Positions 537 to 44,030 of a DNA stretch of 64,000 nucleotides are shown one piece after another. The stretch's first letter is position 1, and each line of letters opens with the position of its first letter. A program made the position numbers and the translations under genes. A model generated the notes under the pieces. That model searched no databases. It saw only the letters and a list, made by a program, of their open reading frames with translations, and was not told where the DNA came from. The stretch spans positions 1,240,001 through 1,304,000 of the forward strand of contig CANTFL010000086.1 of the NCBI GenBank assembly GCA_947650285.1. Direction: 5' to 3'. Source of the DNA: Hyaloperonospora brassicae (taxonomy: Eukaryota; Oomycota; Peronosporomycetes; Peronosporales; Peronosporaceae).

Positions 537-881
537 AATCCGTAGGCGTCGGAAGAAAAGCGGATGTGGTCGTGGAAGGAAGCGGTTGGATGGACGGGCC
601 ACACCTGCGGCAGTGAATGTATCGGGGAGAACGGGACGGAGGGATTTGTTGGTTGGTCCGTTGACCCATTAAGTGGTTGGCCGTGTAGCTGAGACCTGCG
701 GCCCTACTGCTTGAGTTGAGACGGAGATCCTGTCTGTTGTGGCTTCATCCAGCGGCTGGAGGGGACCACTTCTTGCCCCCAAACGTTGTGCAAAAAGGTG
801 CAGTTGGGTTGCTGCAGTTGGACAGTGGGGACTGATCCGAAAACGCAGTGCTGCTTTTGTCGTACGTGATCTCTCACACAT

Positions 882-900
882 GCGTGTGTGTGTGTGTGTG
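882..900. repeat. (TG)n microsatellite
   Basis: Short run of alternating G and T, about nine dinucleotide units. Confidence 0.8.
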
Positions 901-4452: not shown

Positions 4453-4470
4453 TGTCATGGGACTGACCTT
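4453..4470. repeat. LINE target-site duplication, copy at the poly(A) end
   Basis: TGTCATGGGACTGACCTT, identical over 18 bp to 13409-13426 and directly abutting the T-run that is the poly(A) end of the minus-strand LINE. Confidence 0.93.
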
Positions 4471-4522
4471 TTTTTTTTTTTTTTTTTTTTTGTGATCAGA
4501 TGGTCTATTAACATGGGTTTAG

Positions 4523-12515: not shown

Positions 12516-12519
12516 GAAG

Positions 12520-13320: not shown

Positions 13321-13408
13321 CGCGCTCTCGTCCAACCTAAAGGTCACCAAACTTGTCCTGTTTATACTCCGCCTTAACCAGGTGGTCTCTGCTCTGCAGA
13401 TTGGGGAG

Positions 13409-13426
13409 TGTCATGGGACTGACCTT
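13409..13426. repeat. LINE target-site duplication, 5' copy
   Basis: Identical 18-mer to 4453-4470. It marks the 5' end of the LINE at 13408 on the minus strand. Confidence 0.93.
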
Positions 13427-14677: not shown

Positions 14678-14679
14678 TA

Positions 14680-14694
14680 CAGCCGTCCCTCCAT
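14680..14694. repeat. pogo-like element, left TIR
   Basis: CAGCCGTCCCTCCAT, preceded by TA at 14678-14679. It matches the reverse complement of the right end with three mismatches. Confidence 0.75.
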
Positions 14695-14819
14695 ATAGCA
14701 AACCAAAATGTGTGGCGTTTTTGCCTCGTTCCTTATATAAAACGCTCTTATATGGAGGATCAATCTGAACCCATTCTAAGAAATGCATCCATGGTACACT
14801 GAGTCTTTAGCATCGAGCA

Positions 14820-16328: not shown

Positions 16329-16546
16329 GTTTAAGGTGGAACGGAAGTAAATGTGCAAAGTGGCAGGCAATGCGAGACTAAGGCAAGTCCAATATAGAGG
16401 GAAACTGGTGGTTGTAGCGCGTTGTTTTAGTACCCTATTTCTTAAGTCTCTTGTATAGAGTCAGCATACGAAAACTAAGTGACGCAGCTTGGTGCGGAAC
16501 ACGAAGTTCATTCAACATGAATTTAACCCTCTATAGAGGTTCTTAA

Positions 16547-16561
16547 ATGGAGGGATGACTA
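16547..16561. repeat. pogo-like element, right TIR
   Basis: Reverse complement reads TAGTCATCCCTCCAT. It is followed by TA at 16562-16563. Confidence 0.75.
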
Positions 16562-16563
16562 TA

Positions 16564-18882
16564 CTTCGTGTTGCCTCTCTCTGATTATAATTTCTTACTC
16601 GGCTGATCATACCATAACTGTCAGAAAATCGGCAGTGCATTCCATTTACATTAGAACTTTCTCATATAATATAAGCACAACAGCCACGACCATCCAAGAA
16701 CGTTTCTCCATCCATTTTTCCGCATGACGAACTAAGTCGAAACTGATAGCTGCGTTTCGAGAGACAGTTCTAGCGGACGGCTGTGCTTACGTGACTTTGA
16801 CATCAAGAACCAAGAAAGCAACGCTGACGATATCTGCCCCGTCGGAAGCATACGTGCAAGGACGACATTGTTGTCGCCTGATCTTACTACATCATGAGAG
16901 TTTGTCGAGAGAGCGTCGTAACTTCAAGTGGTTCTCGCAGCTTTCGTGTGGCCTGTGCCAGAACCAGTGCGAGTCTGTCATCAAGTTCGCTTTTGAACGA
17001 GGATATGGGCCTCTGGCTAAATTACGTCGTCATAAATGATCCTGCAAAGTGGACCATGCCTCGCATGACATGTAACGAGCATCAATTTTGCAACCACTCC
17101 GTCGTAAACAGATCTTCTACAGCTTTGTAGTGGATATTGTCAGAGGGGCCATCTCATGCGTGCCATAAGGTCTTCTCTCTAATCTGCCGTGACTCCACCT
17201 ACACAGCGGCAAGGACGCATATACAAGAGTAAAGACCAAGCAGTTGTAGGTAGATCAGATTCAGTTCCAGCTCGTCCTCTTATGCGTTCGTGAGCTGAGC
17301 ACGTTCGGACATGGAGCAGACGTTAATGGTGACGACACCACCACCAGCCGCGTGACCGCCGTCTACAAGCATATTATACAATCAACGTCTGCATTTGCTG
17401 ATCGTGACCTCGACATGAATAAGACATGTATATACAACTCATCAGGCGGGAGGCATTCGCTTGTGTATTTACGAAGCAGCAAGAACGAGATTCGGATATT
17501 CGCCATCGCGCGGATGTTCGACGAAACAGTACATGGGACGTCCGTGCATCGCTCAAGCACATGATAAATCCAAACAAATGCACTAAATTTATGAATACAC
17601 GTCGTGAACAACGGCGTTACAAAAGATGACCTTCAATCCTTCGTTGAAGATGCGGCCAACACACCAGTGACAAAACATGAACGCCTTCGCTTTTAATAGC
17701 ATTAGCCACCACCAGTTTACAGAAGCGAGGTCGGACGAAGGAGACGAAATGAGTATGAAATCGCAGCCGGTAAGCCTAGCATTGAACCATGAAGTACCCT
17801 TTACGAGCTTGGCGTCCGGAGTCATGCGCCACAACAAGAGGTCTTGGAGAGAATAGTTAGGTCGTAGATATTACGAACAACCCAAATAGTTTGTGGTATT
17901 ATATTCGTTGTATCGAACACACAACGCAATGGTCCGTTCACAGATTAGAATCATTTCGCGGCTTTTGAAACTCCGTGGTGCAAAATTGAGATGAAGCTGG
18001 TCGTTGGTAGATTTTAGCTACATCGAGCTTGTAACGGGATGAGCGCCTCATTTATCATTGGCACGAATTGTATCAAAGTAAACATTATCGAACGGTAATA
18101 TCTTGCAATATTACCCTTGCGAGTCAACGTTGTCAGAATATTACTCTCGACGGCAAATTTCGATGCTGCTCCACTCATTAATTGCTGCAGGCCATTTTAT
18201 CAGCCAACATAATCCCCAGGCGCTGCTAGCCGCGCGCAAAGGGTGGTAAGTAGCTACGACAGACATATTTGTAGCTGAATGTCGCGTAATTGTGATCAAA
18301 GAAATATATTTGGTTTATTTTCAAGGCAAAGGGGCTTAGTACCTAAGCACTCTGCACATTTGCTTGAAGACAAACCTTTTAGAAGACATTGTTTCGCACA
18401 GGTATTCGGGGTGTCGAGGTTGAACCGCAAGACCTGTCAAACGTAAGGTCCGACCTCACCTGATTACCTGATATGTGACAGGTTGACAGACAGGACGAAG
18501 ACATACGGTCGCCATGTGGGATCCTCGGCCAGTGATGACATGAGCGACGAGGAGATATGGACGCCATGCGGTAATGACATCGGGCGGTGGGCGGACTGGA
18601 CGTACGCCATGTGACCTGGTCAAGTTGCTCTGTCGGGGACAAATGTATGTTCGAGTGCTAACACGGACGAGAGTGGTAAACACTGAATGTCTATATCTTT
18701 CACTTACTTAACTGCACACGTGTAGACGACTACGCCTCACGGTCAACATAGCCTTCCTCTACACGCACGTGTACGTCAGGTTTTAAAACCACGTGAGAAC
18801 ACTGTGGTCATTGTACTGACACAGTACATGCAGCCTGTATCCAGCACGCTGTTAATTCAGCTTACAACACCCGGGTCGTCGT
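16564..18882. other. No recognisable gene
   Basis: Only short overlapping frames without domains. Around 18430-18780 there are several short inverted repeats (for example CACGTGTAG near 18717 against CTACACG near 18760), but no LTR or TIR ends could be paired, so I leave it unassigned. Confidence 0.45.
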
Positions 18883-18887: not shown

Positions 18888-19277
18888 TGTAACGGGGCAG
18901 CCCGTTACATGGAATTGTCACTTTAAGGAAAGTGACAATAAAGAATATGAAGTTGAATATTTTTTATACAATATCACCGAAGTGGTGATATTGAAGGGTC
19001 GAACAAAGAGTCTGTTCATTGGTTGATATCTTGATGATATCAACCCACCAATCGCCGCAAGACGCGCGCAATGAGTGGTGACGAGACGTCACCATACACT
19101 CAGTTATATTAGCATAATTAAGTTAAGTCAAACAAAGAGACAGTGGTTAAATACTTAATTATATTAATATAACAGTTCTGCTTTTTCCTTACCTACGCTT
19201 CCTCGCTTGCCTTGTGTACGTCTGTCGGGGCACCGATACCCTTGCGTTAAATTCACGCAAGGGTGTGCCCCGTTACC
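18888..19277 (+). repeat. 5' LTR of gypsy element 1
   Basis: Begins TGTAACGGGG; the last base is C instead of A. It carries hairpins at 18888-18909 (9-bp arms, loop GCAG), 18914-18939 (11-bp arms, loop AAGG), 18969-18993 (10-bp arms) and 19238-19264 (10-bp arms). Confidence 0.92.
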
Positions 19278-19279
19278 CC

Positions 19280-19292
19280 TGGTAGCACTTTG
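19280..19292 (+). promoter_or_regulatory. Putative primer binding site
   Basis: TGGTAGCACTTTG, 2 nt after the LTR. The TGG start suits a tRNA 3' CCA end and TGGTAGC resembles initiator-Met-type primer sites, but the exact tRNA cannot be named from this window. The same site follows the 5' LTR of element 2. Confidence 0.6.
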
Positions 19293-19321
19293 TAGTCCTT
19301 CCAAGGACCACAACATCCAAT

Positions 19322-20482
19322 ATGAACGTGTTGGATGATGAAGAGACTTTTCACGCCACGCGTGAAGGGTTTACCCATTTGAGTGACATCTAATGGGGTG
19401 CGGTAGAACGAATGAGTTCTACCGTAGGCGAGTTCGCCATTAGCGCCATGTTGGAGTCTCTAGACAGAGACCAACAACATGCCGCTATAGCCAAGTTCAT
19501 CCAAAGTGAATTTGTCGCCGAAAAGGAGAAAGTAGCCTTGCTTCACCAGCAAGGCTCTCAACAGGCCGAGCAGTTGAGGGAACTCGGTGATCAACAGACA
19601 GAGCTGTTGAGACAGCAGCAATTCCATGCTGCTGTGGGCGGGACGGCGCATGCGCGTCGTCCCGAGGTCATGAAGGTTGACATCTCCAAGTACAGTGGAG
19701 TCCCGGAGGACTCCCTGTTACTATGGTTTGTCGAACTCGACAGAGCCTTAAGGGCTCGTCGCGTCGAAGATGAGCAAATGAAACTCACATTTGCTCAGAC
19801 CCACTTGGCAGGACGTGCCAAAACTTGGTCCCTGGGACTCGAGAGTAGCGACCCAAATGTGTTTAGGTCGCTAGATGACTTCATGTCCCGGCTCAGACAA
19901 ACGTTTGAGCCGCCACGAGCTGAGTTCAGGGCTCGTTCAGAGCTCCTGAAACTCAAGCAGGGTAAGCGTGATATGCACGCTTACGCTCAACATATACGAC
20001 TCCTCGCGAGTAGTACAACTGCAAACCCTATCCATGAACACACGTTGATTACGGTGTTCATGCAAGGGCTCGCAGAAGGGCCCGTCAGGAGCCACCTGTT
20101 CCGCCTTGAGCTAAATACGCTTGAAGAAGCGATATCAGCCGCGGAACAGGAAGACTTTAGCATGAGACAGGCTCATGCTAGCTCAAACTCTTACCGTCCA
20201 CCAAGACGACAAGATATCGGAGGTCCAGAACCAATGGACCTCTGCTATGTTGAGAGCGAGAGACCTCGCTCTTCAAACAACAATAGATTGCAGAGGTGCA
20301 ATCGCTGTCAGAAGTTAGGGCACTACGCATACGAGTGTAGTGCTCCACGCCCAGTACTTAGCATTACTAATCAAAATGGTTTGGTTGTCCATTTGCCAAA
20401 AAGGAGCAATGGGCGTGGGTCCAGCGCTGTTGCGAAACCGCAACAGCGAGATGGACCATCAAAAAATGGTCGGGGTCAGTAG
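19322..20482 (+). pseudogene. gag: gag of gypsy element 1 (capsid plus CCHC nucleocapsid)
   Basis: The frame begins at the ATG 19322 by comparison with element 2 (ATG 36507). Here it is interrupted by TAA at 19391-19393, after which an open frame of 356 aa runs from the ATG 19412. Residues about 80-230 of that frame form a retrotransposon capsid-type region (LLLWFVELDRALRARR, HLAGRAKTWSLGLES, FMSRLRQTFEP, MQGLAEGPVRSHLF). A zinc knuckle CNRCQKLGHYAYEC lies near residues 297-310. The stop TAG 20480-20482 sits inside a hairpin directly downstream of a slippery heptamer. The product would package element RNA. Only the early nonsense codon distinguishes it from an intact gag, and internal initiation at 19412 might still give a near-full product. 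Confidence 0.88.
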
Positions 20483-20499
20483 GGGCGGAGCGCCCTACT
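20461..20499 (+). promoter_or_regulatory. Candidate -1 ribosomal frameshift site between gag and pol
   Basis: The heptamer A AAA AAT at 20461-20467 is in the gag frame as X XXY YYZ (codons TCA AAA AAT). After a 10-nt spacer comes a hairpin at 20478-20499 with arms AGTAGGG(g)CG and CGCCCTACT around GAG, and the gag stop TAG is within its 5' arm. The pol frame is exactly -1 relative to gag. Element 2 keeps both heptamer (37617-37623) and hairpin (37634-37655). Confidence 0.6.
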
Positions 20500-23400
20500 A
20501 ATCCAGCAACCTCAAGAGAATTTGCAAATCTCTTGAAGAAAGTTGCTCCAGATACACAGTCACTGCGTGTCTCTGCACCTGGTGATGACGTTTCGCTCAT
20601 CACCTTGAAGTTGGAAGCGACAAATGATTTGTCGCTTCGTGCCCTAGTAGACTATGGGGCGTCGAACAACTTTGTTCGTCGCCAGTCACTAGAGGGTCGT
20701 AGGCTCAAGTTCGTTGAGCGCGACATTCCCCCTCACAAGAATGACGGTGCGCCTTGCAACAGGCGCATCGATTAACGTTAAGAAACGTGTAGTCGGAATC
20801 CACTACACGTTGGAGGGCGAACAGTACGAAGATGACTTCATCGTACTGGATCTGGATGACAAATTTGATGTCATCCTGGGATTACCTTGGCTCAGAAAGT
20901 ACAAGCCAAGGGTGAGCTGGCAGCATCGATCCGTGAAGATGCCTGCCACTTGTTCATCAGATGGCAATCTGATGAACATCTTGGAGCGTCCACAAGCGTG
21001 TGGATGTTCTGCGAGTGAGTGCGATGGCCTCACTTGCGGTACGGTCGTTAGCACGACTGCACAAGATCATAGTGTAGTTGATCACTACACTGTGGAGCAA
21101 GCTCCCGGTGGCTGTACAGAAGTACAGGCTGCGCCGAAGGACCACCACTCGAATAAGTCGAGTGGACCGGGACATGGATGCATGCCTAGCGGACAGCATC
21201 TTAGACAGAAGAAACCTGTTGCCCCCAAAGGGCAACATAGAAAACCTAGGTCGACTGTAGTGTCGACCGTAGAGGATCGAGACCTGACTGTGGTTGCACA
21301 GCCACAGTCAGAAGACGTCGAGGAATAAGTACCCACGTACTTGAGGAAGGAATTCCTCAAGAGTCACTTGCTGAAGGATTAGGCCTTCAGCAACCTGTGA
21401 TAAGAAGTTCTTAGGAAGTAACCGAGACGTTGAACGTCTTGGTTAATGACGTATCAAGCGTAGGCGCTTATACGCTTGATCTGATTGTGCCTCCGAAGTT
21501 AACTTCGGAGATAACTCAGTTGCCAACGCTAGAATCGAAACGGTTCTTGCGTGATCTGCGTAGTGGCAAAGTCAAGCAGATCTGCATACTCGTCACAGAG
21601 GATGAGTATGTGGCCGATATTCGGTCGGCAACAGTGTTTGCTGAGAACGAACGGGTTCTCAGCAGCTCATCGATGGACGAAAGTGTCCTCGATGAGAAGA
21701 CTCGGATTGAGCGATACACGTCCCAATCCTGGGAGTCACTTCAGGCAAATCCTTTGTTTAAGGATTTGATCGAATTCAGGGATGTGTTCCCTAAATCCCT
21801 ACCGTGCGAGTTTCCTAAGGACAAAGGCACTCGACACGAGATCGAGCTCAGACCGGGCTCGAAGTATTGTGTCATGAAGCAGTGGCCACTGCCTCGTGAA
21901 CAAGTACTAGCGATCGACAAGTTCTTTGCCGATCGCTTAGCAGCGGGCCATGTGAGGGAATCAACATCCCCTCACAGCTCTCCGACCTTCTGTGTGCGAA
22001 AGGTCACAGGAGGATGGCGGATAGTGCACGCATTCTACAAATTGAATGCTGCAACGGTACAGGCTCAGACGCCGATACCGAGGAAGGACGTGATCATATA
22101 TGGTATGTCAAAGAGTACCATATTTTCGTCCATGGATCTGATGGATGGGTTCTATCAGATCCTCATGCGTGAACGGGACATCCCGTTCACGGAAGTGAGT
22201 ACCCCCAGCGGGATGCTGTGGGGGTGGCTAGTTATGCCACAGGGGCTGAGTAATGCCCCTGCAACATTCAACAGATGTGTCACAAATCTGTTGAGACCGG
22301 TGCGAGACTTCGCACCGAGTTACTTCGACGATGTGTTCGTCCATAGCCGGGCTATGGACGGAAAGACGGACGTTGAAGTTCACAGAACTCACGTTCGTCA
22401 GGTTCTTCAACTTATGCGCAAGCATAAGTTGAACGCCTACCTCAAGAAGTGTATATTCGCGGCTAGCGAAATACCACTTCTTAGTGGAACGTGGGTAAAC
22501 ACGGCGTACGCCCTGATCCCGAAAAGACCAAGGCGATCACCGACTGGCCAGTGCCAGTCGATGTCAAGGGACTTCGTAAGTTCCTTGTACTAGCGGCGTA
22601 CTTGCACAAGTACTCGCGCAAAGACGCCGAGATGACTGTTCATCTTTTTTGCTTGCTCAAGAAAAATGTCAAGTCGTCATGGAACGCTGAGTGTCAGCGT
22701 TATTAGAGGTTATCAAGCAAAGCTTGATGCAATCGCCGATCTCGGCGATTGCAGATCAGGAAAGACCGTTTCATCTGGTCTGTGACGCCAGCGATTTTAA
22801 AATCGGCTGTGCGTTAATGCAGTTCCATGCAGATGGCGCGGAGCGCGTCATCTGTTATCAATCGCGTCAGCTGCAAGCAGCTGAGCGTAATTTACCAGTT
22901 CATGAAAAGGAACTCCTTGCCATGCAGTACGCACTGGCTAAGTTTCGTGTCTATCTCTTAGGAGATAGACCGGTTGTTGTCTATACGGACCATGCGTCAT
23001 TACGCACGGCCGTAAACAGCTCACACCTCTCGCAAAGGATGGCGAGGTGGCTGTCTTTCTTCGCGGAGTATAACGTCTCCGTGGAGTATAAACCAGGACG
23101 ACTCAATGTCGTCGCTGATGCGCTTTCTCGCCGGCCCGATTTCGAGCCGGACGCACAAAAGCAACAGTGAGGATAAGCCCACTGTTGCGACACTGTCAGT
23201 CAGTGTCCCGTCGTCAAGTTTACTTGGCGACGTACGAAAGGCATACGCAGAAGATAAGGATCTTCTGCGATTGATGGATCATCTGTTGAATCCATCCAGT
23301 AAATCCATGAGGGATTTATCGGCTTTGTACCGATCCTCATCGGATCAGTATAGTACACGCAACGGATTGCTGTACTATACAGCTGTTGCCGACGACACGC

Positions 23401-25370
23401 CTCGTGTCGTCGTCCCCGCTCATTATGATTTGCGTTTACGCATCATGTATGAGTGTCACGATGCCCCAACAGGCGGGCATCGTGGTAGAGAAAGACTTAC
23501 CTCACGGTAAGTCGTGACTTTTACTGGCCCCGCCAGTATCAGTTTGTACGCAAGTACATACGTGCTTGCGAGGTTTGTCAACGGGTGAAGCCTAGTCCTT
23601 CATCCCTTGCACCATTGCAGCCTCTGCCTGTTCCGACAGAGTGCTGGCATTCCGTTTCAATGGACTTCGTCTTCGGTTTTCCCGAAGACGCTCACAAGAA
23701 TAATGGTATTCTTGTGTTTGTTGACCGATTCAGCAAGATGGTGCATCTTGCTGCAGTCCCTGAGTAGATCAAGGCTCAAGTTTGTGCTCGTGTCTTTCTA
23801 GACACGGTCTTTAGACTCCACGGGCTACCCCGTGAACTCGTATCCGACCGTGACCCTCGGTTCATGGCGCATTTTGGCAAACCGTGTTCCGCACATTGGG
23901 AACACGATTGAAGATGTCTACTTCTGACCATCCCAAAACAGATGGTCAGACGGAACGTGTGAACCGTGTCCTCGAAGAGACCCTTCGAGGATATGTCCAC
24001 TCGTTTTCGAGTTGGAGCGAATTCCTACCCATGGTGGAATTTGTCATCTATAATTCGGTGCATGCTTCCACACAGCACACACCGTTTTACGTGAATGGCC
24101 TACGCCATCCACATGTGCCCACCCTTCTAGAGTGTTACTCTTGGATAAGGGGGGAGGGACTCGCTCGAGCAAAAACCGTTTTGGCTCTTGCTCATCACGT
24201 GTCGACGCTAACGTCGCCACGTATCATGCCGATGTCGATCAAGTCGACATCGATGAAAAAGATCACCTCAACAATAGCGATGACGCTATTATTGACTCGG
24301 GTGATGATGACGATGCTGGTATATTCAGCATCGTCAACGATTATGCCAGCGAGGAAGAAGACAACCTCGCTAAAGAAGAGAACAATCTCTTAGCAGTGCG
24401 CACGAAGCGCACTGAAAGACAAAACAAAGTCAGCAGAGAACTTCCTGCTTACTCGAGAGGCGGTTGTCCGTTTCGTTCAGGACGCCATCGCAAATGCGGT
24501 GGACCGTCAGAAACGGAACGCAGACAAGAATGGAAGAGCAAATGTTCTTTCATTTAAAGTTAACGACCTAGTACTACTGTCTATGGTAAACTTACCTGGA
24601 CACGCAGTCACTAGTGTCGGCAGTAGTAAACTACTGCCGAAGTACATTGGGCCATTTCGAGTGTTGCATCGCAAGGGCAATGCATACATGATCGAATTGC
24701 CACGTAAGATGCGCAAGCATCCTACGTTTTACGTGGGGAGGCTGAGGCCGCACTGTCAGTAGGAGCCTTCTTCTTCCGATGAAGATAGCCCCCACGTTCT
24801 AGAACATCCATAAAGTTCTTGCGTTCGCGCTCCAGACGATCCGTCTGGTCGCGCAGATATGATACCTCGGAACTTAACCGAGATATCTCCCCGCGAGCTG
24901 TCGCCAGCTCGCCGAATAGGGAGCGGACACCCCGCTCTACCTGAAGCTGCGCCGTGGCATAATCGGCACGATCCCTCGCCCGATCAGCCTCGTGATCCTT
25001 GCGGTTCTTCCGCACGGTATCATTCAAAGCGTAGCGCCGGTCGCGCTCGTGCTTCAAGTCATCGCGCAATTCATCGATTGCGCGATCCATCTCGTAAGGG
25101 TCGAGATGGTGGGCCTGGGGCTCTAGAGGAGGTCTTTCCTCCTCCACCACATCCTTTGGTGGATGCTCACGGTGATCAACGCTTCCTAGTGGAGCGTATC
25201 TTGAATCACCGTGACGATTCAGGATCAAGGACGAGCTACCTCGTCCAGTGGCGGGGGTATCCACCCTCTTATGACAGCTAGGAGCCCCGCTCTCAGCTGT
25301 TGATGGATGTTGAAGGTCTCGTCCGCCAGTATGACGAGACCCATCCGATTAGTCCTCGGGCCCATTGGTA
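20464..25370 (+). pseudogene. pol: pol of gypsy element 1: protease, RT, RNase H, integrase, chromodomain; multiply disrupted
   Basis: Protease: ALVDYGASNNF at about 20635-20667, with Tyr where Ser or Thr normally follows the catalytic Asp. Lesions include a 1-nt insertion near 20733 and a 1-nt deletion near 21326 (both relative to element 2) and TAG near 21412. RT spans 21430-22490, with the YFDD box at 22321-22332, followed by a frameshift near 22490. RNase H spans 22691-23170 (CDASDFKIGCAL, YTDHASL, VVADALSRR) and ends in TGA 23168-23170. Integrase: HHCC finger about 23420-23580 across a frameshift, first Asp in SMDFVFGF, TAG 23765-23767, second Asp in VSDRDPRF, then HPKTDGQTERVN with the Glu. 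A chromodomain (RFLVERILNHRDDSGSRTSY, then LVQWRGYP) occupies about 25175-25330 and is cut by a TAG at the conserved Trp. Chromodomains tether integration complexes to methylated histone tails. This copy cannot make a complete polyprotein. Confidence 0.9.
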
Positions 25371-26347
25371 AACACGCGCTTTAGGCGCTTGTAGACGGAT
25401 TGCAAGTTTGCAATCGCGTCACGCATCTCCTCCGAGAGATGTGCCCTTCCCCAGGGTGAACTTAGGAAATACACGTCCCTATGTGCACGCTGCGAGTTGT
25501 CAACACAACTCGCACAAGGGTCTCTCCATGTGAGGCAAGGAATGTCTGCCTCACTCGACAAACAGTGCAACCGTTACCTGGCACCGGTTGGCGTTCGCTT
25601 TTCGAACCTGAGGCGTGTTGCCTCAAGTTTCTTGAGCCACCCTTCTCGTCCAAAATTCTTTACGTTTTGGACGAACGCGTTCCACGCAGCCAAAAGCGAG
25701 GCTTTGTCATGCTTTTGGTTGCTGTTGTACCATCGATGTCTAAGGAAGACATCGAGATAAAAGTCTTCCTCAGCGTGAAAGTTGCTCGCGCTGGGATTCA
25801 AGCCGTGAAGCTCAGTCGCATCGAATAAGGGTATTCGATGGTGTTGGCTTGTCTCGTGAGACAAGCCATTGATGAGCCGTTCGGGCAAACGCCACGGCTT
25901 CAGCTCATCACGCTTCACGGTGGTACCTTTTTTGGTACCACGGTTGTCAGTATGACGATGGGTTGCACCATCGTCAGGTCGCTCGTGCGTAGGAGCACGA
26001 GCTGATTGCGGTGATGAGCAAACATACTCATCACCATATTCGTCATCACTGCCGAACAGACTGTGTTGCAACTCACGAGTCCGTTCGTTCGGCTATGGCC
26101 TTGGCGAACACTGAGGCGTCGCCGGTGAGCGAGACGCCTCTGCAGCATTGCGCGAGTCAGACACGTCTGACTCGCCAGAGTAGATGCCCATAATGTCGGG
26201 GTCATCATGCGCACGCGGCGAGGTGCCGCGTGCACCTGCAGCACCTCTTGCTGCAGGCGACGAACGAGCAGCAGACGATGAATCGTCTGCCGCAGAAGCT
26301 GGCACAGGCACAGACTCTGTGTGCCTTGAGTCACCCCGCATAGACAT
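24722..26347 (-). pseudogene. Antisense ORF of gypsy element 1 (coiled-coil protein), interrupted
   Basis: Minus-strand coding-like frames fill the element between the integrase end and the 3' LTR and overlap the chromodomain on the other strand. Pieces in order: 26347-26093 (Ala/Ser/Pro-rich, RGAAGARGTSPRAHDDPD), 26071-25574 (conserved-looking, FYLDVFLRHRWYN, AAWNAFVQNVKNFG), 25570-25349 (LHCLSSEADIPCLTW, DPCASCVDN) and 25264-24722 (long Arg/Glu/Asp-rich coiled coil ending LERERKNFMDVLERGGYLHR). Stops lie between the pieces. Element 2 has the same protein with different lesions. No known family recognised. It resembles in position the antisense ORFs reported in some plant Ty3/gypsy Tat-lineage elements, but sequence relationship is not claimed. 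Confidence 0.65.
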
Positions 26348-26466
26348 GTTAACTATGCGAGGTCGAGCGGAAAGTGAATGGAACGGACCCAACAAGTGCT
26401 CCCTGTCCCAATGGCGCCCAACGGGTGGCCGCCAAGTTTTCGATAGTCCTACAGTGATTATCAGTT

Positions 26467-26479
26467 AAGGGGGGGGTGA
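26467..26479 (+). promoter_or_regulatory. Polypurine tract of gypsy element 1
   Basis: AAGGGGGGGGTGA immediately before the 3' LTR start TGTAACGGGG; the plus-strand priming site for DNA synthesis. Confidence 0.8.
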
Positions 26480-26872
26480 TGTAACGGGGCAGCCCGTTAC
26501 ATGGAAATTGTCACTTTGAGGGATAATGACAATAAATAATATTATGTTGAATATTCTTTTAACAATATCACCAATAGTGGTAATATTGGTGAAGCGACCA
26601 AAGAGTCTGCTCATTGGTTGATATCTTGATGATATCAACCCACCAATTGTCGCAAGACGCGCGCAATGAGTGGTGACGAGACGTCGTCATACACTCAGTT
26701 ATATTAGCATAACTAAGTTAAGTCAAACAGAGAGACAGTGGTTAAATACTTAATTATATTAATATAACAGTTCTGCTTTTTCCTTACCTACGCTTCCTCG
26801 CTTGCCTTATGTACGTCTGTCGGGGCACCGATACCCTTGCGTTAAATTCACGCAAGGGTGTGCCCCGTTACA
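26480..26872 (+). repeat. 3' LTR of gypsy element 1
   Basis: 393 bp, TGTAACGGGG to CCCCGTTACA. It is closer to the 3' LTR of element 2 (43639-44030, few differences) than to its own 5' LTR. Confidence 0.93.
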
Positions 26873-26877
26873 CCCAT
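26873..26877. repeat. Target-site duplication of gypsy element 1, right
   Basis: CCCAT, matching 18883-18887. Confidence 0.85.
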
Positions 26878-31451: not shown

Positions 31452-31891
31452 TGTAACGGGGCACCGACGACTACGTACTGGTTGACCAGTACGGAGTTTA
31501 CTATCACTGACTGTAGTGATAGCCAGTGCCCAGCTAGGTGTAGAACTACACAGAGGAAGGCATAAGGACTAAGGTGAAAGACTTAAGTCGTAGTAAAAGT
31601 GAAACTGTTATTAAAATAATTAAGCCCTATTACTCTTGTATCTCTGTTTGTCCTGACTTAATTATATCAATCTAACTAAATGTATGATGACGTCTACTCA
31701 CCACCCATTGCGCGCGTCTAGAAGCGATTAGTTGGTTGATATCATCACGATATCAACCAATGAGTAGACCCTTCGTTCATCTTCAACAATATCATCATGC
31801 TCTCTGATATTGTTAAAAAAATTCAACGTAATATTATTTATAGTTATTTTCCTCTTAGTGACAATATCATGTAACGGGCTACCCCATTACA
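31452..31891 (-). repeat. Solo LTR of the gypsy hairpin family
   Basis: 440 bp on the minus strand, with TGTAACGGGG-type ends on both sides (one terminal base change) and CCTAC duplications outside, so it was left by recombination between the two LTRs of one insertion. It belongs to a different LTR variant from elements 1 and 2 but keeps the same architecture: hairpins with arms GTACTGGT/ACCAGTAC, CTATCACT/AGTGATAG, GGTTGATATC/GATATCAACC and CAATATCA/TGATATTG. Confidence 0.88.
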
Positions 31892-35987: not shown

Positions 35988-36458
35988 TGTAACGGGGTGA
36001 GCCCGTTACATATAAATTGGTACGAATAAACCAATTTTTGAATATTATCTATTTTGATAATATTCTATCAACATCACTCGAGAAAAGCGATGTTGTCGGA
36101 ATATTACCTCCTAGGGTAATATCCGAGGAGGGGTCCACTTCTTGAATGATGTGCACTGTAAATCAACCAATTTAACCACCAATCGCTGCTGGACACGCGC
36201 ATTGGGTGGTAGACAGAAGACCCACATAGGAAACAGTAGTTAAATATAGTTAGATTACTATGAAAGATGATTTAGTAAGAAAATAAGTATTTTGAATTAC
36301 AGTTCTACTTTTCTCTCAAGACAGAGCCATCGGGTTCTGTATTGTCTTAATCGTGCTTCTTCACGCCACGTGTACGTGACTTCGGGCGTACTCACCCTTG
36401 TATTGTTATCAATACAAGTCCTTGCTCAGTTGTCTAAGCAAGAGCGTGCCCCGTTACA
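35988..36458 (+). repeat. 5' LTR of gypsy element 2 (variant subfamily)
   Basis: 471 bp, TGTAACGGGG to CCCCGTTACA, but the interior differs widely from the LTRs of element 1 and from its own 3' LTR. It still forms a hairpin chain: GAATATTATC/GATAATATTC, GGAATATTACC/GGGTAATATCC, CTTGTATTG/CAATACAAG and CTTGCTCAG/CTAAGCAAG. The preceding 5 bp (GTAAT) do not match the 5 bp after 44030 (GCTTC). Confidence 0.88.
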
Positions 36459-36460
36459 CC

Positions 36461-36473
36461 TGGTAGCACTTTG
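36461..36473 (+). promoter_or_regulatory. Putative primer binding site of element 2
   Basis: TGGTAGCACTTTG, 2 nt after the 5' LTR; identical to the site in element 1 despite the different LTR. Confidence 0.6.
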
Positions 36474-36506
36474 CGGTCCTTCCAACGACCACCCACAATA
36501 TCCATC

Positions 36507-37657
36507 ATGAACATGAGGGTGAGGGATGAGGAAGAGAGCTTTCACTCCACACGTGAAGGCTTCGCCCATTTGAGTGACCTCGAATGGGCCGCGGTAGGGC
36601 GAATGAGCTCTACCGTGGGCGACATTGGCATTACCGCTATATTGGAATCTCTTGACAGAGACCAACAACATGCCGCCATCGCCAGGTTCATTCAATATCA
36701 ACTTGGCGCCGAACGAAGATCGTAGCCTTGCTTCGCCAGCAGGGCTCTTAAAAGACAGAGCTGTTGAAACAGCAGCAAATTAATGCTGCTGTGGACGGGA
36801 CGACGCACACGCGTCGCCCCGAAATCTTGAAGGTTGGCATCTCCGAGTACAGAGGAGTCGAGGAAGACTCCCTATTGTGATGGCCCGTCATAGAATACAG
36901 AGCCATAAGGGCACGTCGCATCGACGATGAGCAAATGAAACTAACATTTGCTCAATCCCACTTGGCAGGACGTGCCAAGACTTAAACCTTAGGACTGGAG
37001 ATGAGCGACCCATTCGCTTTTGAGTCGCTTGAATCCTTCAAAACCCAGCTCAAACGTTCGTTTGAGCCACCAAGGGCTGAGCTAAGGGCTCGATCATAGC
37101 TCCTGAAACTCAAGCAGGGTAAGCGTGATGTGCACGATTACGCTCAGCATATACGACTCCTAGCGAGTAGTATACCTGGAAACCCTGTAAATAAACACAC
37201 GTTGATTACTTTGTTCATGCAAGGGCTCGCAGAAGGGCCCGTCAGGAGCCACCTGTTCCGCCTTGAGCTGAATACGCTTGTAGAAGCGATATCAGCCGCG
37301 GAACAGGAAGACTTTAGCATGAGACAGGCTCATGCTAGCTCAAGCTCTTATCGTCCACCGAGACGACAAGAGATCGGAGGTACAGAACCAATGGACCTCT
37401 ACTATGGTGAGAGCGAGAGACCTCGCTCTTCAAACAACAAGCGATTGCAGAGGTTCAATCGCTGTCAGAAGTTAGGGCACTACGCATACGAGTGTAGTGC
37501 TCCACGCCCAGTACTTAGCATTACTAATCAAAATGGTTTGGTTGTCCATTTGCCAAAAGGAGCAATGGGCGTGGGTCCAGCGCTGTTGCGAAACCGCAAC
37601 AGCGAGATGGACCATCAAAAAATGGTCGGGGTCAGTAGGTGCGGAGCGCCCTACTAA
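36507..37657 (+). pseudogene. gag: gag of gypsy element 2, disrupted
   Basis: ATG at 36507, open until 36723-36725, then several stops (for example TGA 36878-36880 region and TAA near 36984) through the capsid part, which is diverged from element 1. From about 37090 it resembles element 1 and is open again: MQGLAEGPVRSHLFRLELNT and a knuckle FNRCQKLGHYAYEC in which the first Cys has become Phe. A 1-nt deletion in an A run near 37556 shifts its end to 37657. Confidence 0.82.
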
Positions 37658-40600
37658 TCCAGCAACCTCAAGAGAATTTGCAAATCTCTTGAAGAAATTT
37701 GCTCCAGATACACAGTCACTGCGTGTCTCTGCACCTGGTGATGACGCTTCGCTCATCACCTTGAAGTTGAAAGCGACAAATGATTTGTCGCTTCGTGCCC
37801 TAGTAGACTATGGGGCGTCGAACAACTTTGTTCGTCGCCAGTCACTAGAGGGTCGTAGGCTCAAGTTCGTTGAGCGCGACATTCCCTTCACAAGAATGAC
37901 GGTGCGCCTTGCAACAGGCGCATCGATTAACGTTAAGAAACGTGTAGTCGGAATCCACTACACGTTGGAGGGCGAACAGTACGAAGATGACTTCATCGTA
38001 CTGGATCTGGATGACAAATTTGATGTCATCCTGGTATTACCTTGGCTTAGAAGGTATGAGACAAGGGTGAGCTGGCAGCATCGATCCGTGAAGATGCCTG
38101 CCACTTGTTCATCAGATGGCAATCTGATGAACATCTTGGAGCGTCCACAAGCGTGTGGATGTTCTGCGAGTGAGTGCGATGGCCTCACTTGCGGTTCGGT
38201 CGTTAGCACGACTGCACAAGATCACAGTGTAGTTGATCACTACACTGTGGAGCAAGCTCCCGGTGGCTGTACAGAAGTACAGGCTGCGCCGAAGGTCCAC
38301 CACTCGAATAAGTCGAGTGGACCGGGACATGGATGCATGCCTAGCGGGCAGCATCTTAGAAGAAAGAAATCTGTTGCCCCCAAGGGGCAACATGAAAATC
38401 CTAGGTCGACTGGAGAGTCGACCGTAGAGGATCGGTTCCTGACTGTGGTTGCACAGCCACAGTCGGAAGACGTCGAGGGAATAAGTCCCCACGTACTTGA
38501 GGAAGGAGTTCCTCAAGAGTTGCTTGCTGAGGGATCAGGCCCTCAGCAACCTGTGGAAGCAAGATCCCAGGAAGTAACCGAGACGTTGAACGTCTTGGTT
38601 AATGACGTATCAAGCGTAGGCGCTTATACGCTTGATCTGATTGTGCCTCCGAAGTTAACTTCGGAGATAACTCAGTTGCCAACGCTAGAATTGAAAAGGT
38701 TCTTGCGTGATCTGCGTAGTGGCAAAGTCAAGCAGATCTGCATACTAGTCACAGAGGATGAGTATGTGACCGATATTCGGTCGGCAACAGTGTTTGCTGA
38801 GAACGAACGGGTTCTCAGCAGCTCATCGATGGACGAAAGTGTCCTCGATGAGAAGACTCGGATTGAGCGATACACGTCCCAATCCTGGGAGTCACTTCAG
38901 GCAAATCCTTTGTATAAGGATTCGATCGTATCCAAGGATGTATTCCCTTAATTCGTACCTTGCGAGTTGCCTAAGGACAAAGGCACTCGACAAGAGATCG
39001 AGCTCAAACCGGGCTCGAAGTACTGTGTCATGAAGCAGTGGCCACTGCCTCGTGAACAAGTACTAGCGATCGACAAGTTCTTTGCCGATCGCTTAGCAGC
39101 GGGCCATGTGAGGGAATCAACATCCCCTCACAGCTCTCCGACCTTCTGTGTGCGAAAGGCCACAGGAGGATGGCGGATAGTGCACGCATTCAACAAGTTG
39201 AATGCTGCAACGGTACCGGCTCAGACGCCGATACCAAGAAAGGACGTCATCATAGATGGTATGTCAAAGAGTACCATATTTTCGTCCACGGATCTGATAG
39301 AAGGATTCTATTAGATCCTTATGCGTGAACGGGATGTTCCGTACACAGCAGTGAGCACCCCCAGCGGGATGCTGTGGGAGTGGCTAGTGATGCCACAGGG
39401 GCTGAGTAATGCCCCTGCAACATTCAACAGATGCGTTACAAATCTGTTGAGACCGGTGCGAGACTTCGCGCCGAGTTACTTCGACGATGTGTTCGTCCAT
39501 AGACGGGATATGGACGGAAAGACGGACGTTGAAGTTCACAGAACTCACGTTCGTCAGGTTCTTCAACTTATGCGCAAGCATAAGTTGAACGCCAACCTCA
39601 AGAAGTGTATATTCGCGGCTAGCGAAATACCACTTCTTAGTGGAACGTGGGTAAACACGGCGTACGCCCGGATCCCGAAAAGATTACGGCGATTGCCGAT
39701 GGCCAGTGCCAGTCGATGTCAAGGGACTTCGTAAGTTCCTTGTACTAGCGGCGTACTTGCACAAGTACTCGCGCAACTACGCCGAGATGACGGTACATCT
39801 TTCTTGCTTGCTCAAGAAAAATGTCAAGTCGTCATGGAACGCTGAGTGTCAGCGTTCTTTGAGGGTATCAAGAAAAGCTCGATGCAATCGCCGATCTTGG
39901 CGATTGCAGATCAGGACAGACCGTTTCATCTGGTCTGTGACGCCAGCGATTTTGAAATCGGCTGTGCGTTAATGCAGTTCGATGCAGATGGCGCGGAGCG
40001 CGTCATCTGTTATCAGTCGCGTCAGCTGCAAGCAGCTGAGCGTAATTTCCCAGTTCATGAAAAGGAACTCCTTGCCATGAAGTACGCACTGGCTAAGTTT
40101 CGTGTCTATCTCTTAGGAGATAGACCGTTTGTTGTCTATACGGACCATGCGTCATTATGCACGGCCGTAAACAGCTCACACCTCTCGCAGAGAATGGCGA
40201 GGTGAATGTCTTTCTTCGCGGAGTATAACTTCTCCGTGGAGTATAAACCAGAACGACTCAATGTCGTCGCGGATGCTCTTTCACGCCGGCCCGATTTCGA
40301 GCCGGACGCACAAAAGCAACAGTGAGGATAAGCCCACTGTTGCGACACTGTCAGTCAGTGTCCCGTCGTCAAGTTTACTTGGCGACGTACGAAAGGCATA
40401 CGCAGAAGATAAGGATCTTCTGCGATTGATGGATCATCTGTTGAATCCATCCAGTAAATCCATGAGGGATTTATCGGCTTTGTACCGATCCTCATCGGAT
40501 CAGTATAGTACACGCAACGGATTGCTGTACTATACAGCTGTTGCCGACGACACGCCTCGTGTCGTCGTCCCCGCTCATTATGATTTGCGTTTACGCATCA

Positions 40601-42529
40601 TGTATGAGTGTCACGATGCCCCAACAGGCGGGCATCGTGGTAGAGAAAGACTTACCTCACGGTAAGTCGTGACTTTTACTGGCCCCGCCAGTATCAGTTT
40701 GTACGCAAGTACATACGTGCTTGCGAGGTTTGTCAACGGGTGAAGCCTAGTCCTTCATCCCGTGCGCCATTGCAGCCTCTGCCTGTTCCGACAGAGTGCT
40801 GGCATTCCGTTTCAATGGACTTCGTCTTCGGTTTTCCCGAAGACGCTCACAAGAATAATGGTATTCTTGTGTTTGTTGACCGATTCAGCAAGATGGTGCA
40901 TCTTGCTGCAGTCCCTGAGTAGATCAAGGCTCAAGTTTGTGCTCGTGTCTTTCTAGACACGGTCTTTAGACTCCACGGGCTACCCCGTGAACTCGTATCC
41001 GACCGTGACCCTCGGTTCATGGCGCATTTTGGCAAACCGTGTTCCGCACATTGGGAACACGATTGAAGATGTCTACTTCTGACCATCCCAAAACAGATGG
41101 TCAGACGGAACGTGTGAACCGTGTCCTCGAAGAGACCCTTCGAGGATATGTCCACTCGTTTTCGAGTTGGAGCGAATTCCTACCCATGGTGGAATTTGTC
41201 ATCTATAATTCGGTGCATGCTTCCACACAGCACACACCGTTTTACGTGAATGGCCTACGCCATCCACATGTGCCCACCCTTCTAGAGTGTGACTCTTGGA
41301 TAAGGGGGGGAGGGACTCGCTCGAGCAAAAACCGTTTTGGCTCTTGCTCATCACGTGTCGACGCTAACGTCGCCACGTATCATGCCGATGTCGATCAAGT
41401 CGACATCGATGAAAAAGATCACCTCAACAATAGCGATGACGCTATTATTGACTCGGGTGATGATGACGATGCTGGTATATTCAGCATCGTCAACGATTAT
41501 GCCAGCGAGGAAGAAGACAACCTCGCTAAAGAAGAGAACAATCTCTTAGCAGTGCGCACGAAGCGCACTATAAGACAAAACAAAGAGTCAGCAGAGGACT
41601 TCCTGCTGACTCGAGAAGCGGTAGTCCGTTTCGTTCAGGCCTCTATCGCAAATGTGGTGGACCGTCAGAAACGGAACGCAGACAAGAATGGAAGAGCAAA
41701 TGTTCTTTCATTTAAAGCTAACGACCTAGTACTACTGTCTATGGTAAACTTACCTGGACACGCAGTCACTAGTGTCGGCAGTAGTAAACTACTGCCGAAG
41801 TACATTGGGCCATTTCGAGTGTTGCATCGCAAGGGCAATGCATACATGATCGAATTGCCACGTAAGATGCGCAAGCATCCTACGTTTTACGTGGGGAGGC
41901 TGAGGCCGTACTGTCAGTACGAGCCTTCTTTCTCCGATGAAGATAGCCCCCACGTTCAAGAACATCCATAAAGTTCTTGCGTTCGCGCTCCAGACGATCC
42001 GTATGGTCGCGCATATATGATACCTCGGTATTCAACCGAGTTATCTCCCCGCGAGCTGTCGCCAGCTCGACGAATAGGGAGCGGACATCCCGATCGACCT
42101 GAAGCTGCGCCGTGGCATAATCGGCGCGATCCCTCGCCCGATCAGCCTCGTGATCCTTGCGGTTCTTCCGCACGGTATCAGTTAAAGCGTAGCGCCGGTC
42201 GCGCTCGTGCTTCAGGTCATCGCGCAATTCATCGTTTGCGCGATCCATCTCGTAAGGGTCGAGACGGTGAACCGAATCATCTGGAGGAGGTATTTCCTCC
42301 TCCACCACATCCCTTGGTGGATGCTCACGGTGATCAACGCTTTCTAGTGGAGCGTATCTTGAATCACCGTGACTATTCAGGATCAAGGACGAGCTACCTC
42401 GTCCAGTGGCGGGGGTATCCTCCCTCTTGGAACAGCTGGGAGCCCCGCTCTCAGCTGTTGATGGATGTTGAAGGTCTCGTCCGCCAGTATGACGAGACCC
42501 ATCCGATTGGCCCTGTGGCCCATCGGTAA
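37619..42529 (+). pseudogene. pol: pol of gypsy element 2: protease, RT, RNase H, integrase, chromodomain; disrupted
   Basis: The protease region (DYGASNNF, about 37800) is intact in an open frame to 38951, without the two indels of element 1. A TAA after VFP (38949-38951) breaks the region before RT. RT contains YFDD at about 39478 and a TAG near 39314 created inside a hairpin arm. A frameshift near 39650, TGA at 40203-40205 and 40323-40325, a frameshift near 40650, TAG 40920-40922 and a frameshift near 41040 follow. The integrase C-terminal frame 41039-41971 (310 aa) ends in TAA, and the same frame then encodes the chromodomain at about 42338-42497 (RFLVERILNHRDYSGSRTSY, then LVQWRGYPPSWNSWEP), complete here. 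Most lesions from RT onward are shared with element 1. Confidence 0.88.
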
Positions 42530-43507
42530 ACACGCGCTTTTGGCGCTTGTAAACGGATTGCAAGTTTGCAATCGCGTCACGCATCTCAGCCGAGATGTGT
42601 GCCCTTCCCCAGGGCGAACTTAGGGAGTACACATCCCTATGTGCACGCTGCGAGTTGTCAACACAACTTGCACAAGGGTCTCTCCATGTGAGGCAAGGAA
42701 TGTCTGCCTCACTCGACAAACAGTGCAACCGTTACCTGGCACCGGTTGGCGTTCGCTTTTCGAACCTGAGGCGTGTCGCCTCAATTTTCTTGAGCCACCC
42801 TTCTTGTCCAAAATTCTTTACGTTTTGGACGAACGCGTTCCACGCAGCCAAAGGCGAGGCTTTGTCACGCTTTTGGTTGCCATTGTACCATCGATGTCTA
42901 AGGAAGACATCGAGATAAAAGTCTTCCTCAGCGTGAAAGTTGCTCGCGCTGGTATTCAAGCCGTGAAACTCAGTCGCATCGAATAAGGGTATTCAATGGT
43001 GTTGGCCTGTCTCGTGAGACAAGCCATTGATGAGCCGTTCGGGCAAACGCCACGGCTTCAGCTCATCACGCTTCACGGTGGTACCTTTTTTGGTACCACG
43101 GCTCCCAGATTGACGACGGCTCACGCCATTGTCATCACGCTTGTGCGAAGAGGCTCGAGTCGGCGGTGGTAAGGAGTAATACTCTCACCACCCCGATCAT
43201 CATCATCACTGCCGAATAGACTGTGATGCAAATCACGAGTCTGTTCGTTCGGCAGTGGCCTTGGCGAATACTGAGGCGTCGCCGGTGATCGAGACGCCTC
43301 TGGACCATTGCCCGAGTCAGACACGTCTGGCTCGCCAGAATAGATGACTTCAACGTCGGGGTCATCATGCGCACGCGGCGAGGTGCCGCGTGCACCTGCA
43401 GCACCTCTTGCTGCAAGCGGAGAAGGAGCAGCAGACGAAGAATCGTCTGCCGCGGAGGCTGGCACAGCACCGGGATGTGCGGGTCTTGAGTCAACTCGCA
43501 TAGACAT
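41880..43507 (-). pseudogene. Antisense ORF of gypsy element 2 (coiled-coil protein)
   Basis: Same antisense protein as in element 1: N-terminal Ala/Ser/Pro-rich part from the ATG 43507, a middle part at 42959-42732 (FYLDVFLRHRWYNGNQK, AAWNAFVQNVKNFGQEG), then a 282-codon open frame 42728-41880. The last contains a Cys-containing segment (CLTWRDPCASCVDN) and a coiled coil of about 130 residues (YEMDRANDELRDDLKHERDR, then LATARGEITRLNTEV). Lesions are a frameshift near 43120 and a TAA (42734-42732) that both elements share. Residue differences between the two copies in the coiled coil are mostly conservative (E/D, S/T, K/R, L/M). It overlaps the sense-strand chromodomain completely. Confidence 0.65.
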
Positions 43508-43626
43508 GTTAACTATGCGAGGTCAAGCGGAAAGTGAATGGAACGGACCCAACAAGTGCTCCCTGTCCCAATGGCGCCCAACGGGTGGCCGCCAAGTTTT
43601 CGATAGTCCTACAGTGATTATCAGTT

Positions 43627-43638
43627 AAGGGGGGGTGA
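43627..43638 (+). promoter_or_regulatory. Polypurine tract of gypsy element 2
   Basis: AAGGGGGGGTGA directly before the 3' LTR. Confidence 0.8.
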
Positions 43639-44030
43639 TGTAACGGGGCAGCCCGTTACATGGAAATTGTCATTTGAGGGATAATGACAATAAATAATAT
43701 TATGTTGAATATTCTTTTAACAATATCACCAATAGTGGTGATATTGGTGAAGCGACCAAAGAGTCTGCTCATTGGTTGATATCTTGATGATATCAACCCA
43801 CCAATTGTCGCAAGACGCGCGCAATGAGTGGTGACGAGACGTCGTCATACACTCAGTTATATTAGCATAATTAAGTTAAGTCAAACAGAGAGACAGTGGT
43901 TAAATACTTAATTATATTAATATAACAGTTCTGCTTTTTCCTTACCTACTCTTCCTCGCTTGCCTCGTGTACGTCTGTCGGGGCACCGATACCCTTGCGT
44001 TAAGTTCACGCAAGGGTGTGCCCCGTTACA
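43639..44030 (+). repeat. 3' LTR of gypsy element 2
   Basis: 392 bp, TGTAACGGGG to CCCCGTTACA, nearly the same as 26480-26872 and unlike the 5' LTR of the same element. Confidence 0.92.

Follow-up and report, generated by a model that had tools for sequence, protein, structure and literature searches.

Short perfect hairpins along the elements of a Ty3/gypsy retrotransposon clade in Hyaloperonospora brassicae

Retroelements of the window and their hairpins

The window, a stretch of 64,000 nucleotides from the genome of the oomycete Hyaloperonospora brassicae, carries on its forward strand an LTR retrotransposon, element 1 (18888..26875), whose LTR pair (18888-19279 and 26480-26875) shows 93% identity and encloses gag, protease and reverse transcriptase (RT) domains recognised by Pfam. 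The gag open reading frame (19412..20482) matches Retrotrans_gag and Ty3_capsid, its zinc-knuckle match lying under Pfam's cut-off, and pol is represented by a protease part (20714..21328, RVP_2) and a reverse transcriptase part (21430..22593, RVT_1), all on the forward strand. The longest open frame of element 1 has 392 amino acids, against 1100 in the piece of L003, a locus of the same clade, and the pol frame of element 1 is therefore broken. In L003 the domains run from RVP_2 (3-102) through RVT_1 (454-619), RNase H (683-813) and H2C2 (931-988) to rve (1007-1097); by its LTR pair and the order protease-RT-RNase H-integrase, the clade of element 1 is a Ty3/gypsy LTR retrotransposon clade. 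Element 2 (36438..44030, forward strand) belongs to the same clade, and an LTR pair sought within these coordinates was not found. Family B is represented in the window by a solo LTR on the reverse strand (31600..31891), whose hairpins are conserved.

With hairpins defined as inverted repeats with perfect arms of at least 8 and loops of at most 12 nt, and with 200 dinucleotide shuffles as control, element 1 (18888-26872) contains 88, all but one of them (87) mutually non-overlapping, against 1.4 +- 1.2 (maximum 5) in the shuffles, which bears out the excess over one or two chance arms claimed in the original prediction. Arms of at least 10 number 34, the shuffles giving an expectation of 0.11, and element 2 holds 67 hairpins (arm at least 8) against 1.6 expected. 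All 23 hairpins listed in that prediction were recovered exactly, in position and with perfect arms of the length given, and two of them (22729-22752 and 25846-25867) possess one further pair each. Among the stems of 12 bp on the forward strand are those at 20951..20978 (loop GGCA), 22406..22433 (loop GCAA) and 22728..22753 (2-nt loop), the last being one of the two lengthened hairpins.

The hairpins had been described as running through LTRs, gag, pol and the region of an antisense open frame, and their density (arm at least 8) is similar in all parts: 15.3/kb in the 5' LTR (6 hairpins), 9.3/kb in gag (10 hairpins), 10.9/kb in 20483-24700, 11.8/kb in the 3' part (24701..26479, 21 hairpins), which includes the counterpart of element 2's antisense open frame, and 10.1/kb in the 3' LTR (4 hairpins). 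One 10-bp stem of the 5' LTR (19021..19045) has arms that are the same in most family-B LTRs and a loop that is different. Loop sizes in element 1 peak at 4-5 nt, consistent with the many 4-nt loops noticed earlier; for arms of at least 7 the excess is confined to short loops, counts past about 40 nt being close to shuffled values. The phrase 'continuous chain' is apt in that hairpins occur along the whole element, but slightly too strong as to coverage and gaps, since arms of at least 7 cover 26% of the bases of element 1, and hairpins with arms of at least 6 span 43% of it with a longest gap of 202 nt. Dicer-type precursor hairpins, such as those of miRNAs and hairpin siRNAs, have stems of about 20 bp or more; with loops of at most 12 nt, the longest perfect arm is 12 in element 1 and 14 in L003, so that the stems are, as had been supposed, too short for Dicer.

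Distribution of the hairpins and length of their stems

Four other stretches of the window contain 0.0-0.4 hairpins per kb, the highest count being 8 against 3.7 expected (1-18800), and two host genes of the window do not depart from chance. Counts are likewise near chance in other RT loci, in distant gypsy loci and in one Copia element; with the divergent gypsy loci L042, L045 and L047 at chance, the idea of a trait common to all gypsy elements was rejected. The trait is thus restricted, among the elements sampled, to one Ty3/gypsy clade. The shuffle-controlled scan proposed with the original prediction accordingly gave a density above that of shuffled controls, host genes and other gypsy elements, and not the equality named there as refuting.

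Within coding regions the excess was compared with permutations of synonymous codons (100 per locus, arm at least 8). L003 contains 44 hairpins against 1.29 after permutation (maximum 4), L065 33 against 0.70, L043 28 against 0.75, L039 18 against 0.68, L041 12 against 0.92 and L044 11 against 0.77. Codon choice therefore creates the stems and synonymous permutation abolishes the excess, confirming that pairing and protein coding are satisfied together; the excess is independent of protein and codon usage. An effect of codon register is weak in L003 (11/57, p=0.046) and not significant in L039, L041 and L040. An origin of the hairpins in chance, base composition or codon usage can be dismissed with near certainty, being refuted by dinucleotide shuffles and codon permutation alike and by the near-chance level of other elements and host genes.

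Stem length differs between lineages. The element-1 group shows an excess of stems from 5 up to roughly 12 bp with its centre at 8-10, its sister families at about 7-10 bp, and a third group (L040 and kin) in stems of 5-6 bp, with few longer. An assignment of this third group to elements without the trait proved wrong: it looks empty at arms of at least 8 and is strongly enriched in shorter stems, with 63 5-bp stems in L040 against 16.4 after codon permutation (maximum 29) and 33 6-bp stems against 4.6 (maximum 13), at loops of 0-6 nt. Neither the lineage-specific length nor the 5-6 bp families were part of the earlier description. Only 2 of 34 distinct third-group stems of 6 bp or longer (loops 2-6) reach 7, against 25% expected (p=0.009); such an upper limit is significant in the third group only, and in the element-1 group extension past about 10 bp drops towards chance.

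Inheritance of the hairpins across all families was rejected, as their positions turn over between distant families: at a threshold of at least 80% pairing, 1 of 47 L003 hairpins is kept in L041, 0 of 48 in L039 and 0 of 45 in L040, closer families retaining more. The spread of the trait was assessed within the H. brassicae genome alone; Peronospora, Phytophthora and Globisporangium have related proteins among the best 120 of 4821 matches. Relatives sought in viral contigs gave no match with the patterns used, and no report of such an element appeared among the open-licence papers listed.

Folding energy and evolution of the stems

The excess of folding energy over shuffled sequence (MFED) is 42.9% in element 1 (mean of 44 windows), 50.3% in L003 and 48.6% in L067, falling to 27.4% in the family-B locus L084 and to 14.4% and 12.9% in two loci of the third group, against 0.7% in a control RT element and 0.6% in a host gene. 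The local folding z-scores proposed earlier as a check average -4.21 for the sense and -4.23 for the antisense strand of L003, with 95% of 65 windows below -2. A folding advantage of the sense strand, sought by folding both strands, was not found, the two being equal.

Between the element-1 group and family B, with the badly aligned first part of pol left out, changes were less frequent in columns of element-1-defined stems (31/717) than in columns elsewhere (146/1716, p=2e-4), and likewise in those of stems defined in B (16/653 vs 161/1780, p=2e-9); when every pol column is counted, the badly aligned part among them, the difference for element-1-defined stems is not significant (68/781 vs 187/1811, p=0.22). 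The LTRs behave alike, with 18/131 against 87/256 (p=2e-5) for element-1-defined and 32/156 against 73/231 (p=0.02) for B-defined stems, and in the third group each of the six directions compared shows stronger conservation of stems (in one example 34/612 vs 200/1984, p=5e-4). This slower change in pol and LTRs between families argues that the stems are maintained; protein constraint could account for part of the pol result, but the LTR result argues against it. Among 25 copies, variants common to several are rarer in paired columns (66/962 vs 225/2172, p=0.002), and private variants are not (215/962 vs 504/2172, p=0.6).

Compensating double changes between the element-1 group and B number 4 and 3 by direction in the well-aligned part, largely the same ones, against an estimated chance expectation of well under one. 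Inside the clade, only two clear compensated pairs vary.

Explanations and comparison with known systems

The explanation that we consider probable is genome-wide selection, in one oomycete Ty3/gypsy clade, for local self-pairing of single-stranded nucleic acid. Mostly synonymous changes would build simple short-loop hairpins along the whole transcript, each lineage setting its own stem length. The selection on RNA folding first suggested is upheld as selection for pairing, by conserved stems, codon choice and a few compensating doubles, but is strained if confined to sense RNA, G-U not being clearly preferred over A-C. Since G-U and A-C changes are roughly equal in frequency (163 vs 156 cells) and the two strands are equal in folding, the relevant pairing is probably Watson-Crick and open to both complementary strands, genomic RNA together with antisense RNA or cDNA. 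As to target strand and purpose, we infer by analogy that short hairpins in both strands may slow sense-antisense annealing and small-RNA targeting, yet be too short for Dicer; this purpose is preferred tentatively, compaction for packaging into gag particles ranking next as a somewhat more doubtful one. It is possible, at less than even confidence, that the order lies in the Watson-Crick complementarity of both strands and not in RNA folding as such: a hairpin lattice of lineage-tuned stem length, which would serve cDNA as well as genomic and antisense RNA, and in whose 5-6 bp lineage stems of at least 7 bp fall short of the number expected from chance extension, owing to selection or to some property of the RT.

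That ordinary selection acts solely on genomic RNA of sense polarity, whether for compaction or for many dispersed packaging contacts inside gag particles, on the pattern of genome-scale ordered RNA structure (GORS), is rather unlikely. The A-rich loops of the sense strand and the 5' purine in 21 of 22 L039 closing pairs hint at a role of sense RNA and not of both strands, the hairpins cover all parts of the element, and positions turn over between relatives as in viral GORS (PMC7642675, available text). G-U also exceeds A-C just outside the stems, at the second pair, where the element-1 group with B gives 29:14 and the third group 36:12, and the hairpins of L041 and L039 looked up in L040 give 25:8 and 33:18. 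Under selection on sense RNA, however, G-U should far exceed A-C, and differences between families stand at 86:71 (both directions summed and not independent; p=0.002 against 2:1), the share between the element-1 group and B being 14:16, or 6:9 without the badly aligned part. In folds predicted for the element-1 group, G-U accounts for 6.8% of the pairs, under the 12.2% of shuffles, antisense folding equals sense, and the excess sits in short-range hairpins.

Quasipalindrome template switching perfects imperfect inverted repeats, and a mutational origin, in which RT folds back on the nascent strand and copies arm to arm without benefit, stem length being a property of the RT, would account for the Watson-Crick perfection, the parity of G-U with A-C, the symmetry of sense and antisense, a G+C content of the arms close to background in the element-1 group, the likeness of LTR, gag, pol and 3' part, the limitation, among sampled loci, to a single RT clade, the lineage-specific stem length and the non-homologous positions between clades. 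Such mutation is known in E. coli (PMC7202029, available text), and one hairpin (alignment columns 1839-1863), with three group-B differences in one arm, resembles block copying, intermediates existing. Against this origin, fixed single changes between the element-1 group and B outnumber compensating doubles (21 vs 4 and 9 vs 3 by direction in the well-aligned part, 40 vs 8 and 18 vs 4 over all columns), evolution is slower in LTR stems than in the remaining LTR, and the changes in 12 hairpins that vary within the clade are mostly scattered point decay, one hairpin being compatible with a block, so that rewriting of arms as blocks is not clearly seen. Amino-acid identity to the outgroup L040 shows no more than a moderate reduction in the arms of L003 (46% and 48% vs 55.5%, p=0.017) and no consistent one in those of L043 (45/56 against 49) or L041 (53/53 against 51). 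Quasipalindrome mutation moreover acts at hot spots, in contrast to the genome-wide ordered array here; the repeated template switching suggested earlier is thus disfavoured as a purely neutral origin, and appears improbable.

Selection for local self-pairing has its closest parallel in GORS, which in the available text of PMC7642675 is a folding excess extending over the entire genome, coding regions included, and consists of many consecutive stem-loops poorly conserved in position between relatives, with MFED values of 7.5-10.7% in HCV, 12.5% in HPgV, about 15% in SARS-CoV-2 and at most 23.4% among vertebrate RNA viruses. The elements share with it a folding energy above that of dinucleotide shuffles throughout, hairpins spread over coding regions independently of codon usage, and poorly conserved stem positions. 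They differ in being LTR retrotransposons and not positive-strand RNA virus genomes, in an MFED of 43-50% in the element-1 group (shuffling programs differ), and in short perfect Watson-Crick stems of lineage-specific length with no clear G-U preference. Experimentally mapped Ty1 and Ty3 RNAs of yeast, the latter from the same superfamily, are mosaics with stable, highly structured regions of up to 30%, and the available part of PMC11381356 mentions no genome-wide chain of perfect hairpins. The order seen here is like GORS but stronger, and points to a candidate, unrecognised kind of selection on strand folding. In satellite tobacco mosaic virus, a small plant satellite virus and not a retroelement, the RNA forms short stem-loops in linear succession, fitted to the capsid.

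If true, genome-wide ordered nucleic-acid structure would extend from RNA viruses to LTR retrotransposons, with a folding excess about twice the highest viral value quoted above. As stem length differs among related families in one genome, with distant gypsy, Copia and other RT elements as built-in controls, it would be directly testable whether the hairpins serve escape from silencing or packaging, or arise as a by-product of reverse transcription.

Hairpin excess in element 1

Element 1, a Ty3/gypsy LTR retrotransposon at 18888-26875 (+) with LTRs 93% identical and gag, protease and RT domains, had been described as consisting throughout of short perfect hairpins, and 23/23 of the hairpins originally listed were found with perfect arms. 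It holds 88 inverted repeats with arms of at least 8 bp and loops of at most 12 nt (87 non-overlapping), against a mean of 1.4 and a maximum of 5 in 200 dinucleotide shuffles, which upholds the described excess, and they are about equally dense in the LTRs, gag, pol and the 3' part. Arm lengths of 5 to 12 bp are in excess, those of exactly 8, 9, 10, 11 and 12 bp numbering 29, 25, 23, 7 and 4, and the inverted-repeat scan found none of 13 bp or more in the element. Loop sizes peak at 4-5 nt, and for loops above about 40 nt the counts lie near shuffled values. Four other stretches of the window contain only 0.0-0.4 such repeats per kb, the highest being 1-18800 (8 observed, 3.7 expected).

The excess is not a coding artefact, since observed counts also mostly stand far above the means obtained when synonymous codons were permuted 100 times per sequence, leaving protein and codon usage unchanged. 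Among RT-bearing loci of this genome, arms of at least 8 bp numbered 44 versus a permuted mean of 1.29 in L003 (element-1 group), 33 versus 0.70 in L065, 28 versus 0.75 in L043, 18 versus 0.68 in L039, 12 versus 0.92 in L041, 11 versus 0.77 in L044, 1 versus 0.48 in L040 and 1 versus 0.39 in L046. With loops of 0-6 nt, L040 has 63 5-bp stems versus 16.4 in permuted sequences and 33 6-bp stems versus 4.6, and L046 has 52 versus 13.8 and 22 versus 3.6.

Distribution among related elements

The survey covered a single genome (100.6 Mb, 898 contigs) and fetched loci of our own choosing, with family counts as lower bounds because only the best candidates were scored. A 301-base pol probe had at least 40 scored matches at 97-100% identity, and element-1 group copies carry 7.1-13.7 inverted repeats (arm of at least 8 bp) per kb. 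Family B, whose best pol stretch is 84% identical to that group, has 48 hairpins in one element of 7.85 kb, with five more pieces of 3.5 kb containing 17-35 each, and the sister families (eight loci, RT identity 46-71%) have 1.7-5.1 repeats per kb. The third group, tested in 10 of 13 fetched loci with 88-99% mutual identity, contains a single arm of at least 8 bp and 25 7-bp arms versus 14.5 expected, with a strong excess of shorter stems (5-bp 558 versus 213, 6-bp 239 versus 55, each related copy entering the count). Once duplicates are dropped and loops limited to 2-6 nt, the stems number 121 of 5 bp, 32 of 6 bp and 2 of 7 bp. Arm-length counts fit shuffles in nine other RT loci, namely seven that lack an RT match to element 1, plus two divergent ones that Pfam classes as gypsy, L042 and L045; a second run with L042, L045, L047 and one Copia likewise matched shuffles over arm lengths. 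In each of the 30 loci L009-L038, putatively LINE-type because they gave no RT match, between 0 and 3 arms reach at least 8 bp. Long stems may have arisen once or twice, given an RT tree whose root is placed with uncertainty. Among the best 120 of 4821 matches, the nearest named proteins belong to Peronospora effusa (89%) and P. matthiolae (79%).

Folding energy was expressed as MFED, the excess of native over shuffled sequence, in 350-nt windows. It reaches 42.9% in element 1 (44 windows), 50.3% and 48.6% in L003 and L067 of its group, 27.4% in L084 of family B, 12.6% and 6.7% in the sister families (L039, L041) and 14.4% and 12.9% in the third group (L040, L074), with controls at 0.7% (RT element), 0.6% (host gene), 1.8% (L042), 2.5% (L045) and 0.0% (Copia). 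With a different shuffling program, PMC7642675 gives HCV 7.5-10.7%, a pegivirus 12.5% and SARS-CoV-2 about 15%, and puts the highest value on record among vertebrate RNA viruses at 23.4%.

Several features of individual elements were also recorded. Hairpin arms of L039 and its kin L071 and L073 are G+C-rich (0.65-0.66), mostly with G first and C last, unlike those of the element-1 group, whose G+C is near background. L040, a third-group pol piece, has an identical 6-bp hairpin twice on the sense strand (103-120 and 223-240), 120 bases apart. Element 2 (36438-44030, +), of the same clade, looks like a recombinant or one with a diverged 5' LTR, because its 3' LTR belongs to the element-1 type, 36000-44030 yielded no LTR pair, and upstream of 36438 the family-B LTR is matched only by 36176-36210. 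Its antisense ORF (41880-42728, - strand, 282 aa, without Pfam match) is not clearly conserved, the longest open antisense frame in element 1 reaching just 208 codons. The terminal repeats of L084 (126-568 and 7409-7851) are 98.9% identical though its longest open pol frame is at most 244 codons, which suggests recent movement helped by other copies. Elsewhere in the window, 1363-2984 and 47316-48936 form a similar pair in the same order, about 46 kb apart and with 83% and 90% identity over 300-nt pieces, the stretch 47316-48936 overlapping a glycosyl hydrolase family 81 gene.

Maintenance and turnover of stems

Comparison of aligned copies argues that the stems are maintained, not merely present. 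Between the element-1 group and family B, pol without the initial stretch that aligns badly (alignment columns below 1085) changed at 31/717 in group-defined stems versus 146/1716 elsewhere, and at 16/653 versus 161/1780 for B-defined stems; over all columns the figures were 68/781 versus 187/1811, not significant, and 29/686 versus 226/1906. LTR stems changed at 18/131 versus 87/256 when defined in three element-1-type LTRs and at 32/156 versus 73/231 when defined in B (counts back-calculated from percentages), and third-group stems were better conserved in six of six directions (e.g. 34/612 versus 200/1984). When hairpins with at least six scorable pairs were looked up, badly aligned part included, 27 from the element-1 group were kept in B, 10 were one pair off and 8 broken, the reverse giving 30, 5 and 2. 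Among 25 copies, shared changes avoid stems and private ones are indifferent to them; three column pairs show two Watson-Crick types within the clade, and two of these pairs are clear compensations.

Between more distant families little is retained, L003 hairpins being kept at 1/47 in L041, 0/48 in L039 and 0/45 in L040, whereas L041 hairpins are kept at 8/17 in L039. Different families therefore arrived at a like order with stems at other sites, and the same turnover of stem positions is reported for viral genome-scale ordered RNA structure.

Strand, mechanism and possible role

Selection on sense RNA alone should tolerate G-U far better than A-C. Between-family differences sum to 86 G-U versus 71 A-C (directions counted twice, not independent), or 14:16 for group-B (6:9 without the badly aligned part), 36:29 for the third group and 36:26 for L039-L041. 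Element-1 group z-scores are about equal on both strands (L003 sense -4.21, antisense -4.23), and G-U makes up 6.8% of the group's predicted pairs versus 12.2% in shuffles. Against a both-strand reading count the A-rich loops of the sense strand and the 5' purine in 21/22 closing pairs of L039, and G-U also exceeds A-C, pointing to the sense strand, at the second pair beyond the stem ends (29:14 and 36:12) and when hairpins of sister families are traced in L040 (25:8 and 33:18). Our tentative reading is that pairing would matter on both strands, with a part of the signal coming from the sense strand.

A neutral fold-back mechanism of RT as the source of the hairpins explains several features but fits poorly with the slow-changing LTR stems and with the preponderance of single over double changes (21 versus 4 and 9 versus 3), and clear block rewriting is not seen. 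The best account is that selection favours local hairpin formation by the single strands of the element. As to purpose, the proposal is a defence against small RNAs, with packaging into gag particles as its chief rival. In Phytophthora infestans, according to PMC3522703, small RNAs map in both orientations along two Gypsy-type elements; because of such coverage, an element could gain from strands that resist annealing and whose stems would be too short for Dicer.
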